NCBI RefSeq assembly: GCF_030409525.1
Contig: NZ_JAUFQB010000010.1
Coordinates: 1 to 64,000, forward strand
Direction: 5' to 3'
Length of the DNA stretch: 64,000 nt
From: Kaistella yonginensis
GTDB lineage: Bacteria; Bacteroidota; Bacteroidia; Flavobacteriales; Weeksellaceae
Shown here: positions 1,101-6,473 of the stretch, one piece after another
How positions within the stretch are numbered: position 1 is the stretch's first letter
Layout of the letters: each line of letters opens with the position of its first letter
Program-made: the position numbers and the translations under genes
Notes under the pieces: model-generated
Seen by the model: the letters and a program-made list of their open reading frames with translations, nothing else
What the model was told of the DNA's origin: nothing
Database searches by the model: none

Positions 1101-1133
1101 TTTGTAAGAGATTAAATTAAAATTGTATCTTTG
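1101..1133 (+). promoter_or_regulatory. Bacteroidota promoter for Abi-associated RNA
   Basis: TTTG at 1101-1104 and TATCTTTG at 1126-1133, separated by 21 nt, match the TTTG/TAnnTTTG pattern seen before the tRNA genes of this window. Transcription would begin near 1138-1141, more than 100 nt before the Abi start codon. Confidence 0.6.
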
Positions 1134-1139
1134 CACTAA

Positions 1140-1247
1140 CAGTACACACCGCGCTACCCATAAGAACAGCGTCCCAGGGTGTGTCTTTTGCTTTTATAGC
1201 CATAATTCTTGCGAAACTTTTTGTAGTTTTACAAGAATTATTTTTTT
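1140..1247 (+). ncRNA. putative structured small RNA paired with Abi_2 protein
   Basis: About 108 nt lie between a promoter-like element (1101-1133) and a terminator-like hairpin ending at the Abi start codon. The 5' part folds as ACACACC (1144-1150) with GGTGTGT (1178-1184), enclosing GCGCT (1151-1155) with AGCGT (1168-1172, one G-U). ACCC at 1156-1159 could alternatively pair with GGGT at 1177-1180. The 3' part is a stem of about 17 pairs with minor mismatches (1202-1218 with 1225-1241) followed by seven T. No open frame of note is present. The layout (promoter, RNA, terminator, toxin-like gene) resembles type III toxin-antitoxin loci. Function as an RNA antitoxin is inference; a plain 5' UTR attenuator is the alternative. 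Confidence 0.5.
1202..1247 (+). terminator. intrinsic terminator directly before the Abi start codon
   Basis: ATAATTCTTG (1202-1211) pairs perfectly with 1232-1241 and the stem continues inward through AAACT/AGTTT to a six-base loop. Seven T follow (1241-1247). The Abi ATG is at 1250, so expression of the protein needs read-through. Confidence 0.65.
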
Positions 1248-1249
1248 AT

Positions 1250-2155
1250 ATGTTCGAAAAGAAACCGACAACACTTCCGGAACAAATTGAGATTTTAAAG
1301 TCTAGAGGATTAAATGTAGAAGATGAAGACTTTGCAGAACATTACCTTTCTCATGTAAGTTATTATCGACTGGGAGAATATTGGTATTCAATGCAATCGG
1401 ATAAAGAAAATCACCTTTTTAAAGATGGAAGTAAATTTTCAGATGTCATTCATCTCTATGAATTTGACAGGGAATTGAAAATATTACTTTTTGATGTTAT
1501 TGAAAGAATAGAGATCAGTCTTCGTACAAAAATGATTTTTCATTTGTCTCATGAATTTGATGCTTGGTGGTTTCAGGATTTTGGTATTTTCAATGATAGT
1601 TTAGCACTAACAAAAACCTTGTCATCTATTGAAGAAGAAGTTTCGAGAACCAAAGAAAAATACATCAAAGAACATTTCAAAAAGCACAAAGATGACCAGA
1701 GATTTCCACCTGCATGGAAAACATTGGAACAAACGAGTTTCGGGTCTTTGTCAAAATTATATGGCAACCTCAAAAATAATGTAGAATCAAAAGACATTAT
1801 TGCAGTAGAGTTTGGTGCAGTGAATCACACCTATTTACCAAGTTGGTTGCAGTCTATTGCCCAAATCAGAAATTATTGCGCGCATCATTCCAGATTGTGG
1901 AATAAGAATTTACCAGGAAGTCCCAAACTTTTATCCAAGCCACCTTTTGATTGGATTGAGGATGTTCCAAAACAGCATGAATCCATTCATATCTATATTC
2001 ATCTTTGTTTAATGAAATATCTTATAAATATTATCCATCCAACAAATGATTTTACAAACCGACTATCCGAGTTATTGAAAAAATATCCTTCTGTAGATCC
2101 CAATGCTCTCGGAATGAAACCCAATTGGGAAAGTGAAAAACTTTGGAAAAAATAA
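1250..2155 (+). CDS. Abi_2 (AbiD/AbiF-like) HEPN abortive-infection protein
   Basis: 301 residues from the ATG at 1250. An in-frame GTG at 1181 would extend it but lies inside the predicted upstream RNA, so ATG is preferred. The family signature is clear: LPEQIEILKSRGL near the N-terminus, then VSYYRLGEYWY, then FDRELKILLFDVIERIEIS, and near residue 207 a QIRNYCAHHSRLWN block in which R207-x4-H212 matches the catalytic HEPN ribonuclease motif. Abi_2 proteins give phage resistance by abortive infection, probably through RNA cleavage. It sits 17 bp before hsdR, so the two are probably co-transcribed. The structured RNA upstream is probably its partner. Confidence 0.85.
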   Translation: MFEKKPTTLPEQIEILKSRGLNVEDEDFAEHYLSHVSYYRLGEYWYSMQSDKENHLFKDGSKFSDVIHLYEFDRELKILLFDVIERIEISLRTKMIFHLSHEFDAWWFQDFGIFNDSLALTKTLSSIEEEVSRTKEKYIKEHFKKHKDDQRFPPAWKTLEQTSFGSLSKLYGNLKNNVESKDIIAVEFGAVNHTYLPSWLQSIAQIRNYCAHHSRLWNKNLPGSPKLLSKPPFDWIEDVPKQHESIHIYIHLCLMKYLINIIHPTNDFTNRLSELLKKYPSVDPNALGMKPNWESEKLWKK

Positions 2156-2172
2156 CTTTTGAATATTTAATA

Positions 2173-5037
2173 ATGTCAAGCCAACCCGAATATATTTTAG
2201 AACAGAAATTAATTGAACAATTGCATGCTTTAGGTCATAAAGCAGTGAAAATCAGCGATGAATCTGAACTTATTAAAAACCTAAAATCTCAACTTGAAAT
2301 TCACAACAAAAAAAAGTTTTCGGAGAAGGAGTTTGAAAAAATTTTAAATCATCTTTCAAAAGGAAATGTTTTTGAAAAAGCGAAAATACTTCGTGATCGT
2401 TTTCAGTTTACAAAAGATGACGGAACATCAGAGTGGATTGAATTTATTAATCAAGACCATTGGTGCCAAAATCAGTTTCAAGTAACGAATCAAATTTCGC
2501 AAGAAGGAGAATACAAAAACAGATATGATGTTACCGTTTTAATTAACGGACTTCCTTTGGTTCAAATAGAATTAAAACGCCGAGGTTTGGAGATGAAAGA
2601 AGCGTTTAACCAGATCAATCGATACCATCATCAGTCTTTCACTTCGGGAATTGGTTTGTTTAATTATGTTCAACTTTTTGTGATCAGTAATGGAGTGAAT
2701 ACAAAATATTATTCCAATAATGCAAAGCAATCTTTTAAACAGACTTTTTTCTGGTCCGATGAACACAACAATAATATTACGCAGTTAGATAAGTTTGCAC
2801 AGGCATTTTTAGAGCCTTGTCATATTGCAAAAATGATTACCAAATATATTGTACTCAATCAAACGTATAAAATATTAATGGTTCTTCGTCCATACCAATA
2901 TTATGCGGTGGAGAAAATTGTGGAAAGAGTAAGAAATTCAGATAATAATGGATTTATTTGGCATACTACAGGATCAGGCAAAACATTAACTTCTTTCAAA
3001 GCCAGCCAGATTCTGAAAGAAATTCCTAAAGTAGAAAAGGTTGTTTTTGTTGTAGATAGAAAGGATTTGGATTATCAAACCCAAAAAGAATTTGATGCTT
3101 TTGAAAAAGGCAGCGTAGATGCGACTGAAAATACCAAGCATTTGGTGAAGCAACTTTCAGACAATACCAAATTAATTGTGACTACTTTGCAGAAACTAAA
3201 TACCGCTATTACTAAAGAAAAACATGGTAAAAAATTGGTTCATTTGAAAGATAAAAAAGTAGTTTTTATTTTTGATGAATGCCATAGAAGTCAGTTCGGA
3301 GAAACACATCAGAATATTAAAAGATATTTTGAAAAAGCACAAATGATCGGCTTCACAGGAACTCCGATTTCTGAAACAAATTCAGTCGGAAAAATTGAAG
3401 GACAAGCTGCAACTACAAATATGCTTTTCGGTGAATGTCTGCATAAATACGTTATTACAGACGCAATACGAGATGATAATGTGTTAAAATTTTCCGTAGA
3501 ATATGTTGGTCGTTACAAAGAAAAAGAAGGAAGTAATACTTATATCGATACAGAAGTAGAAGGTATTGATACTCAAGAATTGTTAGAAAGTCCTAAAAGA
3601 TTAGAGAAAATCACCGATTATATTATCGCAGAATATGGTAGAAAAACCCATCAAAAAACATTTAATGCTATGTTTTGTGTAAGCAGAATCGATGTTTTGC
3701 AGAAATACTATGATCTTTTTCAAAAGAAAAAGGAAGAAGGAAAGCACAACCTGAAAATCGGCACCATTTTTAGTTACGGTGGAAATGAAGATAATGAAGA
3801 TGCCAATGGAATTATTGAAGAAGTAGAATTAGGAATGGTTGCAGAACCTCGTGCAGAATATGGCTTTAATCATAGCAGAAATGTTCTAGATCGGTATATT
3901 TGCAATTATAATGAAATGTTTGGGTCTAATTACTCTACCAAAGACAGTCAAGATTTCTACAGATATTATAATGATATTGCAAAAAGAGTTCGCAATAAAG
4001 AAGTGGATTTAATCATTGTCGTGAATATGTTTCTTACCGGTTTTGATAGTCCACAACTCAATACCTTGTTCCTAGATAAAAACCTAAAATATCATGGGTT
4101 AATTCAGGCGTTTTCTCGAACTAATAGAATTATTGGCGAAAAAAAATCTCAGGGAAATATCGTTTGTTTTCGAAACCTGAAATCTGCAACCGACGATGCT
4201 GTAACTTTGTTTTCAAATAAAGAAAGTATTACTGAAATTATCATTCAGCCAATCGAAGATTACATTGAGTTATTTAATGCTGCTCTGCTGAAATTGAAAA
4301 TTGTGGCTCCAGAAATTGGAAGTGTAGATCATTATCAAACTGAACAGGAAAAATTTGAATTTGTACAAGTATTCCGCGAATTAATGCGTGTTTTGAATAT
4401 ATTGAAATCTTTTGCTGATTTTAATTTTGCAGATTTAGAAATGCAGGAATTTGAGTTTGACGGTTACAAAAGCAAATACCTTGATATCTGGACTTCATTA
4501 AAAAAAACCGGAGAAGGTGGAGAAGGAAAAGTAAGTATTTTAGATGATGTGGATTTTGAATTGGAACTCATTCACCGCGATGAAATTAATGTAAGTTATA
4601 TTCTTTCTCTTCTCGCAAATTTAAAAGATTCTAATTTGAAAGGTGATAAACGAGAGCAAAAAATCAAAGAAATTCGGGAAATTCTATCTGGCGATGCTCA
4701 ACTGCGTAACAAGAAAGAATTAATTGAAAAGTTCATTGAAGAAAATCTTGCTTCTATTTCGGATGGTGATTCTGTAACCGATGGGTTTGAAACCTTTTGG
4801 AATAAAGAAAAAACCGCCGCTTTTGAAAAAATCGCACTTGAGGAATCTCTCAATAAAGTCAAATTTCAGGAAACCATAAATCAATTTTTATTTACCTCTA
4901 AAACTCCTAAATTAAGCGAAGCGTTGCAATTATTGGAAGTGAAACCTAAACTCACTGAACGAAACAATATTGGCAAAAGAATTATACAGAAAGTACAAGA
5001 TTTCGTGGAAGTGTTTATTGAGGGTGTGGAAGGTTAA
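2173..5037 (+). CDS. hsdR: type I restriction enzyme endonuclease/translocase subunit R
   Basis: 954 residues from the ATG at 2173; an in-frame TTG at 2143 overlapping the Abi stop is less likely. The N-terminal nuclease domain shows RYDVTVLI and QIELKRRG (about 117-137), giving the D...ExK core. The SF2 motor follows with Walker A TTGSGKT (about 264), FDECH (about 368) and GFTGTP, then the SRTNR motif of the second RecA domain and a helical C-terminus. It translocates and cuts unmethylated DNA in complex with HsdM and HsdS, neither of which is in the window. All catalytic motifs look intact. Its neighbours (recombinase, Abi_2, AbiTii protein) are typical of a defence island. Confidence 0.93.
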   Translation: MSSQPEYILEQKLIEQLHALGHKAVKISDESELIKNLKSQLEIHNKKKFSEKEFEKILNHLSKGNVFEKAKILRDRFQFTKDDGTSEWIEFINQDHWCQNQFQVTNQISQEGEYKNRYDVTVLINGLPLVQIELKRRGLEMKEAFNQINRYHHQSFTSGIGLFNYVQLFVISNGVNTKYYSNNAKQSFKQTFFWSDEHNNNITQLDKFAQAFLEPCHIAKMITKYIVLNQTYKILMVLRPYQYYAVEKIVERVRNSDNNGFIWHTTGSGKTLTSFKASQILKEIPKVEKVVFVVDRKDLDYQTQKEFDAFEKGSVDATENTKHLVKQLSDNTKLIVTTLQKLNTAITKEKHGKKLVHLKDKKVVFIFDECHRSQFGETHQNIKRYFEKAQMIGFTGTPISETNSVGKIEGQAATTNMLFGECLHKYVITDAIRDDNVLKFSVEYVGRYKEKEGSNTYIDTEVEGIDTQELLESPKRLEKITDYIIAEYGRKTHQKTFNAMFCVSRIDVLQKYYDLFQKKKEEGKHNLKIGTIFSYGGNEDNEDANGIIEEVELGMVAEPRAEYGFNHSRNVLDRYICNYNEMFGSNYSTKDSQDFYRYYNDIAKRVRNKEVDLIIVVNMFLTGFDSPQLNTLFLDKNLKYHGLIQAFSRTNRIIGEKKSQGNIVCFRNLKSATDDAVTLFSNKESITEIIIQPIEDYIELFNAALLKLKIVAPEIGSVDHYQTEQEKFEFVQVFRELMRVLNILKSFADFNFADLEMQEFEFDGYKSKYLDIWTSLKKTGEGGEGKVSILDDVDFELELIHRDEINVSYILSLLANLKDSNLKGDKREQKIKEIREILSGDAQLRNKKELIEKFIEENLASISDGDSVTDGFETFWNKEKTAAFEKIALEESLNKVKFQETINQFLFTSKTPKLSEALQLLEVKPKLTERNNIGKRIIQKVQDFVEVFIEGVEG

Positions 5038-5102: not shown

Positions 5103-5981
5103 ATGATTAATGACCTGATAAAAAATATTATTAATGATACAATCCCTTTGAGCCGAGCATTAACTACGGCCAAAGTAATTGCCTATAAAGTCAAAAGCGA
5201 AGAATTGAAAAGTTGGCTTTCAAATGAGATAAATGGCTATTCGACCCAAGAACTACCTTCATATCGCAAATTGCATTGCGATCTTTATGCAGAATTTTAT
5301 AATTCACATGGAGTTCTTGAAACAATTCCTTGTGACATGAGTGAAGTGATTGATTTAGAAGAAACAGAATATTCATTTAATGAAATGAGAGTTGTTCAAG
5401 ATATTAAAACCATAGAATTTGGTTTAGAACAAAGTAAAGGCGAAATGTTCGGATTTGAGTATCTTCCTGATAAATTGGTCAAGCAATTACAAATTGTAAA
5501 TAATGCAGTAGTAACGAAAATTAAACGGAGAATACAATTCAGTCAGTTAAAATACATTATTGAGATTACTAAACAAAAGCTATTAGATACTCTTTTAGAA
5601 TTGAATGACACTTTTCCCAATCTTGAAAATGAATATATTATGAATAAAGAAAATAATGAAAAGGTAAATAATATCGTTACAACATATATAACTGGAAATA
5701 ACAATCCTTTGAATATTTCTACAGGATTAAATGTCGAAATCAAATCTACCTCTGTTTTCAATTTTTCTGATAGTGATAGTAAATATTTAGAAAGTATAGG
5801 TGTACATGAGAAAGAAATAGCAGAATTTAAAGACATTGTTTCAGATGAAAATGAAGATCAAAATAGTAAAAAATCAAGAATAATGAAATGGCTTGGAAAT
5901 GTTTCAGCTTCTATTGCAAGCAGAGGCTTATATGAAAGTATTCCACAACTTACAGATTATATTCATCGAATGTTTCCATAA
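5103..5981 (+). CDS. AbiTii-domain protein, probable defence gene
   Basis: 292 residues. The first 170 or so look like an AbiTii domain: an amphipathic helix, then SLSRALTTAKVIAYK-like helix, the diagnostic ELKSWLSNEINGY, and ELPSYRKLHCDLYAEF followed by a short beta-rich part. The remainder has no family I recognise; it contains a low-complexity NITTYITGNNNPLN-like stretch (about 195-215) and a helical C-terminus. AbiTii domains occur in phage-resistance proteins and are often fused to variable effector parts; the mechanism is unknown. It follows hsdR by 65 bp in the same direction and closes the defence island. Confidence 0.7.
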   Translation: MINDLIKNIINDTIPLSRALTTAKVIAYKVKSEELKSWLSNEINGYSTQELPSYRKLHCDLYAEFYNSHGVLETIPCDMSEVIDLEETEYSFNEMRVVQDIKTIEFGLEQSKGEMFGFEYLPDKLVKQLQIVNNAVVTKIKRRIQFSQLKYIIEITKQKLLDTLLELNDTFPNLENEYIMNKENNEKVNNIVTTYITGNNNPLNISTGLNVEIKSTSVFNFSDSDSKYLESIGVHEKEIAEFKDIVSDENEDQNSKKSRIMKWLGNVSASIASRGLYESIPQLTDYIHRMFP

Positions 5982-6194: not shown

Positions 6195-6278
6195 TACCTC
6201 GGACGGGACTTGAACCCGTACATCCTTACGGACACAGGATTTTAAGTCCTGCGTGTCTACCAATTCCACCACCAAGGC
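6195..6278 (-). tRNA. tRNA-Leu (anticodon TAA)
   Basis: 84 nt. Acceptor GCCTTGG pairs with CCGAGGT, the anticodon loop carries TAA inside CAGGACTTAAAATCCTG, a long variable arm of class II type is present, and the T arm reads GGGTTCAAGTCCC. No encoded CCA. Last gene of a Leu-Gly-Leu cluster. Confidence 0.95.
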
Positions 6279-6284
6279 AAAAAG

Positions 6285-6360
<76 letters not shown>

Positions 6361-6391
6361 AATTTCTTGAAAAAATCCTCAGAAATTTTCG

Positions 6392-6473
6392 TGCGGATGA
6401 AGGGACTCGAACCCCCACGCCTCACAGCACCAGATCCTAAGTCTGGCATGGCTACCAATTACATCACATCCGC
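6392..6473 (-). tRNA. tRNA-Leu (anticodon TAG)
   Basis: 82 nt, class II with a long variable arm. Acceptor GCGGATG pairs with CATCCGC; anticodon stem-loop CCAGACTTAGGATCTGG gives TAG. First gene of the cluster, with a promoter 30 bases upstream at 6503-6535. Confidence 0.95.

Follow-up and report, generated by a model that had tools for sequence, protein, structure and literature searches.

A divergent abiF-type RNA in front of a predicted AbiF ribonuclease gene in Kaistella yonginensis

The DNA analyzed was a stretch of 64,000 nucleotides (hereafter, the window), comprising positions 1 to 64,000 of contig NZ_JAUFQB010000010.1 from Kaistella yonginensis (RefSeq assembly GCF_030409525.1). Near its start, the + strand carries a gene for a tyrosine recombinase (142–1071; PF00589), a small RNA gene, a gene for an AbiF-type protein (abiF), and a gene for the type I restriction subunit HsdR (hsdR, 2176–5037; TIGR00348, 500 bits) that begins 20 bases past the abiF stop codon. 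Across 1250–5037, abiF sits between the recombinase gene and hsdR. The recombinase probably belongs to an hsdS inversion system, as suggested by the gene order at locus L097, which is hsdM, hsdS, an inverted piece of hsdS, recombinase, RNA and hsdR. At the window's edge (1–43), bases 15–43 match, in inverted orientation, a stretch of the L097 hsdS at 28 of 29 positions; an invertible segment of hsdS is the probable point of the assembly break. A further defense gene of the block, for AbiTii (5103–5981; PF18864, 96 bits), is found just past hsdR, and three tRNA genes (6195–6473, minus strand) adjoin the block. Among 60 AbiF loci (defined below), abiF is directly followed by hsdR in at least seven (the window, L026, L030, L034, L072, L114, and L115), which fall in three clades of the protein tree; the count is a lower bound because the flanks are short.

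The product of abiF (1250–2155, + strand; 301 aa) is a predicted AbiF/Abi_2 HEPN ribonuclease toxin. It scored 183.4 bits against PF07751 (Abi_2; curated cut-off, 25.6 bits) and 197 bits, over nearly its full length, against PDB entry 8vz6, being 37% identical to PbAbiF (8VZ6); PADLOC called it AbiD (250 bits). The HEPN motif RNxxxH occurs as RNYCAH at residues 207–212, and the original prediction of an Abi_2/AbiF-type HEPN protein is thus borne out by profile and motif alike. At E 0.001, no Pfam family besides Abi_2 was detected in the protein. Cas13-like proteins have two HEPN domains per chain; one Abi_2 domain and one RNxxxH motif were seen in these 301 aa. Matches to the protein were found in 84 phage and 419 plasmid records, all at less than 60% identity, and neither the window protein nor the 8vz6 sequence retrieved a relative from viral contigs.

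Upstream of abiF, a Bacteroidota-type promoter was read from the sequence at 1101–1133 (+ strand). It consists of TTTG (1101–1104), a 21-nt spacer, and TATCTTTG (1126–1133), located just as had been proposed; TTTG and TAnnTTTG are taken here to be Bacteroidota promoter elements. The RNA core that follows (AACAGUACACACC...CUUUUGCUUU, 1138–1194, +) is supported by conservation among homologs and by a covariance model, R1, against which it scored 79.3 bits, the window itself being in the training set of R1. Within the core, a compact two-stem fold occupies exactly the predicted positions, 1144–1184 (+), and reads ACACACC-G-CGCU-ACCCAUAAGAAC-AGCG-UCCCAG-GGUGUGU. The 5' strand of stem 1 (1144–1150) pairs with its 3' strand (1178–1184); a single G (1151) separates it from stem 2 and its 12-nt loop (1152–1171, with 1152–1155 pairing with 1168–1171); and a 6-nt single-stranded bulge, UCCCAG (1172–1177), takes the position of CAAAUC in the Rfam abiF RNA, RF03085. 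Both stems were assigned from folding and covariation. Farther downstream, an A+T-rich hairpin (1202–1241) and T run form a terminator-like attenuator (1202–1247, +), assigned from its folding z-score and from comparison across loci. Its run of seven T residues spans 1241–1247, and the abiF ATG at 1250 stands two bases beyond; the hairpin and T run had been correctly described, except that the gap had been given as three bases.

Folding of the whole region 1139–1247 gave z = -4.8, and that of the hairpin part (1185–1247) gave z = -5.7. For the small fold taken alone (1144–1184), z was -2.5, and six of 200 shuffled sequences were equally stable; folding energy by itself was accordingly rejected as proof of this structure. 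Its conservation does prove it. A scan of species genomes for relatives of the window protein yielded 12 homologous loci (ten at 65–83% identity, L036 at 55%, and L037 at 64% over 73 residues), making 13 with the window. The RNA core is present and nearly invariant in all 12 homologs, and TAnnTTTG is located exactly 12 bases 5' of it at every one of the 13 loci. The sequences of the spacer between the RNA and the ATG differ among these loci; nine have a spacer hairpin at or below z = -2.8, and in the other four (L028, L034, L035, and L036) it is absent or weak. The apical loop is longer in eight of the 13, mostly as a third hairpin of varying sequence, and its length ranges from 11 to 26 nt.

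For covariation, 16 sequences were aligned (the 13 close loci plus L005, L022, and L045). Standard pairs filled 97.1% of the 208 pair cells. Six of the 13 base pairs had changed on both sides, as compared to a mean of 1.1 in shuffled alignments (none of 500 shuffles reached as high) and to at most one in slid versions of the alignment; helix 1 accounted for five such pairs out of nine. These values should be read with the caveat that the stems are nearly identical in most rows, the 11 changed cells stemming from few sequences. A conserved fold upstream of homologous Abi_2 genes, which the original prediction had proposed as its own check, was thus recovered both by comparison of homologs and with R1.

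The relation of this RNA to RF03085 has two sides. At the Rfam gathering threshold, only tRNAs were found in the window; E-value matches to rteR, mir-219, and a trypanosome rRNA were all far below their cut-offs and were taken as chance. RF03085 did not match the window at E values up to 10, nor did it match any of the 12 close homologs, and by Rfam score (cut-off, 37 bits) the window RNA falls outside the family. In a wider sense, it has the features of an abiF RNA: two stems and single strands of 1 nt and 5–6 nt, directly 5' of an AbiF gene. The printed RF03085 consensus comprises a 6-bp stem, one nucleotide, a 3-bp stem, an 11-nt loop, a 6-nt bulge, and the returning stem. The plan common to both is a first stem of 6–7 bp, one nucleotide, a second stem of 3–4 bp, a loop, a 3' bulge of 5–6 nt, and the closing strand of stem 1, placed before AbiF. 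The two differ in the loop (ACCCAUAAGAAC in the window, CUCU-type in RF03085), in the bulge (UCCCAG versus CAAAUC), and in the optional third hairpin, which occurs in the relatives of the window RNA, unlike in RF03085.

Before cousin genes, the corresponding position did yield RF03085 matches: L043 (59.1 bits), L040 (40.1), and L044 (37.6), the last being the locus of C. difficile phage phiC2, as well as L038 (57.4), L102 (59.8), L101 (53.9), L100 (52.7), and L121 (41.0). Scores just below the cut-off were obtained for L006 and L007 (35.0 bits each) and L115 (36.3 bits). Conversely, R1, at E values up to 1, missed the canonical abiF RNAs of L006, L007, L038, L043, L044, L100–L103, and L115. 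Some loci bridge the two models: L040 (R1, 30.2 bits; RF03085, 40.1 bits), L121 (27.1 and 41.0 bits), and L039 (38.7 and 34.0 bits, the latter below the Rfam cut-off). In L040, which is above that cut-off, stem 2 is CGC/GCG and the bulge UACCAG, near those of the window. We conclude that the window RNA is a divergent branch of the abiF RNA class and, by the strict Rfam test, not a member of the family.

A protein tree was made from 73 distinct Abi_2 proteins from the collected loci. A branch with 100/100 support divides them into 60 proteins, here called the AbiF clade, and a sister clade of 13 (L009–L020 and L023). In the AbiF clade, the R and N of the HEPN motif are present in 60 of 60 proteins and the H in 59 (one gap). 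The sister clade also has an intact HEPN motif, and the upstream RNA sign is absent from it. A two-stem descriptor, deemed significant at p of 0.05 or less against 40 shuffles, was significant at 53 of the 60 AbiF-clade loci (the match at L027 being its terminator, although the RNA is present there) and at none of the 13 sister-clade loci. Seven AbiF loci were missed (L004, L041, L042, L056, L100, L116, and L118); L100 is matched by RF03085, and L004, L042, L056, and L118 by R1 (L118 weakly, E 0.09). The type of RNA tracks the protein clade, with 11 changes on the tree versus a mean of 39.9 for shuffled types (none of 200 shuffles as low), a pattern that common descent alone can produce. These types had been assigned by regular expression after the RNAs had been seen; the type given to L060 was wrong, and L123 was counted as lacking an RNA although the descriptor finds the fold there.

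Genome-scale searches with R1 and RF03085 were both carried out with stricter filters. R1 matched 34 of 395 genomes of the phylum, 29 of them from a single family (f17), and five of 296 genomes of the family sample; RF03085 matched two of 296 genomes in another sample of the phylum, one of them above the cut-off. The 51 distinct R1 places from the phylum and family searches were then traced downstream for Abi_2. An intact Abi_2 was found at 20, with the profile match beginning 29–101 nt downstream. At 11 places, Abi_2 was broken or partial by our rule. Two of the latter, G454 and G513, carry tandem RNAs of which the matched one comes first, and an intact abi gene begins about 620 nt farther on. 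By the same rule, Abi_2 was cut by the contig end at four places (in G033 the missing portion is the front and middle, and the end of the gene remains), and at three the contig ended early and Abi_2 was not seen. For the other 13, the 1.3 kb downstream contained no Abi_2; the tie between RNA and toxin is therefore not a strict one.

Solitary abiF-type RNAs of this kind include those at L097 (6924–6974), L098, L070, and L073. PF07751 was searched for in 34 RNA-bearing genomes (the 33 phylum matches other than the window's own, plus G174), and at E 0.001 there was no match in 11 of them. Listed completeness is 98–100% for eight of the 11, and two (G618 and G633) hold abi remnants; when six were searched again with R1, the match was kept in all six. 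Nine of the 13 solitary RNAs are preceded by a promoter-like site located as far upstream as in cognate loci, as compared to 13 of the 20 intact loci; shuffled upstream sequence gave expectations of 0.1 of 13 and 0.28 of 20, respectively. The site is TAnnTTTG at -12/-13 in G347, G405, and G572 and TTG...TA at -35/-36 in G338, G607, G450, G505, G478, and G388, of which G338, G607, G505, and G478 are not independent, since their flanks are similar. No such site was detected at G174, G434, G490, or one of the RNAs of G584. Stem mismatches occur in the solitary RNAs of G450, G478, G434, and G584, so part of the solitary set may be decaying; the set is also biased toward intact RNAs, having been found with a model that demands the fold. 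Over its 51 bases, the G174 RNA is identical to the L026 RNA; the flanking genes share 87–91% identity, and at G174 the toxin gene is missing. Tandem pairs of unlike abiF RNA types stand before a single abiF gene or before hsdR. Two unlike RNAs in tandem were noted by eye at L114 (1311–1500) and L115 (1291–1480), and at L098 an R1-type RNA is followed by an RF03085-like one (30.4 bits, below the cut-off).

Taken together, the locus is, with high confidence, a two-part unit resembling type III systems, in which an AbiF toxin is paired with an RNA antitoxin of a divergent kind. What is present in the sequence is a promoter-like site, a conserved and covarying fold, its placement before AbiF, a HEPN motif, and a plan common with RF03085. 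By analogy to published relatives, the folded RNA very probably keeps the AbiF toxin off. The promoter at 1101–1133 would give rise to an RNA of roughly 55–110 nt. Most transcripts would end at the hairpin and T run, so that the RNA would be in excess of the toxin mRNA, and read-through would yield AbiF. The protein, judging from its relatives, would act as a dimeric HEPN RNase; the folded RNA would bind it, with the 6-nt bulge and the loop blocking the RNase. If the RNA ran short, as might happen in the course of a phage infection, unbound AbiF would be expected to cut RNA and growth to stop.

In C. difficile, AbiF and its RNA have been published as a toxin-antitoxin system (PMC12373285). The RNA, RCd22, and abiF are under one promoter, and a terminator stops most transcription; deletion of RCd22 raised abiF expression 17-fold. 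RCd22 binds AbiF and neutralizes its toxicity both in cis and in trans, and this neutralization was abolished by stem-breaking, not by stem-keeping, mutations. The window has the sequence parts that regulation of the RCd22 kind would need, and transcription, binding, and toxicity are presumed here on that analogy; inhibition of the toxin by the RNA, as the type III mechanism, is likewise extrapolated from PMC12373285.

It could be asked whether the RNA is a cis leader only, that is, a transcription attenuator or riboswitch-like element for abiF (and hsdR) that has no effect on the protein. A hairpin and T run do precede the abiF ATG, attenuation could set both genes given that hsdR starts 20 bases past the abiF stop, and RNAs with no abiF precede hsdR in L097 and L098. 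However, attenuation requires a terminator and not an invariant two-stem RNA, and at four of the 13 loci the RNA is kept although no clear terminator is present. RNAs also occur in the 11 of 34 genomes that gave no Abi_2 match, and RCd22 binds AbiF and acts in trans (PMC12373285). We regard this explanation as improbable. A guide RNA that aims AbiF at a target, in the manner of crRNA and Cas13, with the apical loop as the guide, is more improbable still. The apical loop is indeed the variable part (11–26 nt, longer in eight of the 13 close loci), but it is mostly a hairpin or else one kept motif, WCCCRUNAGAAC, which is shared by the window, the distant family f17 of the phylum, and a gammaproteobacterial plasmid (L045); moreover, a review portrays AbiF as an RNase that cuts single strands non-specifically and is kept in check by its RNA (PMC12737573). 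A ToxIN/CptIN/TenpIN-like system, the classical type III form, has the same order of RNA, terminator, and toxin but can be practically dismissed, since no tandem repeat array was found in 1060–1260 and the toxin is an Abi_2 protein with a HEPN fold that gave no ToxN, CptN, or TenpN match (Pfam, E 0.001).

The antitoxin reading retains the type III layout, in that the RNA gene is upstream and a terminator-like hairpin stands between RNA and toxin (at nine of the 13 loci). Of the type III likeness originally drawn, the order and the terminator stood; the tandem RNA repeats and the toxin fold did not, and a clear terminator is missing at four of the 13 loci. The suggestion that the RNA and its fold were undescribed was right insofar as the Rfam model misses it, but it is built like the abiF RNA RF03085, which belongs to a published kind of toxin-antitoxin system. 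The AbiF-RNA system itself is already known, and the RNA here is a divergent type of it. Neither this RNA type nor solitary abiF RNAs were found described in the literature searched, which is weak evidence of novelty.

The solitary antitoxin RNAs constitute a lead beyond what was originally predicted. Tentatively, and at somewhat less than an even chance, abiF RNAs may outlive their toxins and persist apart from them: single copies that have promoters of their own, and different types stacked in twos, could be standing antidotes to AbiF brought in by incoming elements, or independent small RNAs, and in type I restriction operons the site before hsdR could be a reused AbiF slot that gathers old antitoxins. 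PMC12373285 and PMC12737573 regard AbiF as the Cas13 ancestor, which agrees with the original statement that AbiF proteins are linked to Cas13 and to small RNA partners; the evolution of its RNA accordingly bears on the transition from a non-guided antitoxin to a guide. From a second RNA type, not seen by Rfam and built on the same plan with a different loop, one can tell where change is tolerated, and the solitary RNAs make it simple to test if RNA antitoxins persist as immunity to toxins.

Among known systems, guards of type I restriction of the PrrC/EcoprrI type comprise an RNA-cutting toxin that is held by Hsd proteins. As in the window, the toxin is beside type I restriction genes; restraint is by Hsd proteins in PrrC and would be by RNA in AbiF. 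A role of AbiF as a guard of restriction is a conjecture. Phage sk1 is said, from the title of a report by Rince in 2000, to protect from AbiF. A decoy abiF RNA was sought in its whole record with RF03085 (E up to 3) and R1 (E up to 5); neither matched, and the idea was rejected within the reach of these models. A Prevotellaceae AbiF with its RNA, PbAbiF-AbiFr, was reportedly presented as a toxin-antitoxin pair by Zilberzwige-Tal in 2025.

The RCd22-AbiF pair of phage phi027, as given in PMC12373285, has the window's order of RNA, terminator, and abiF under one promoter and a HEPN motif, RNQCAH, close in form to the window's RNYCAH. It differs in having two abiF motifs where the window has one, and in its setting, a prophage lysis module in another phylum versus type I restriction genes. 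The PbAbiF-RNA complex (8VZ6, which a figure legend in PMC12737573 labels PbAbiF-ncRNA) is the structural relative, its protein matching that of the window at 197 bits. The nearest relatives of PbAbiF in our collection (L100–L103 and L043; 48–60% identity) carry RF03085 RNAs of 52.7–59.8 bits, whereas the window RNA does not match RF03085; the RNA of PbAbiF itself is judged here through these relatives only. According to that review, AbiF is a single-strand RNase, and it is inhibited by nucleotides of a single-stranded bulge in its RNA (PMC12737573); that inhibitory bulge has a single-stranded counterpart in the window RNA.
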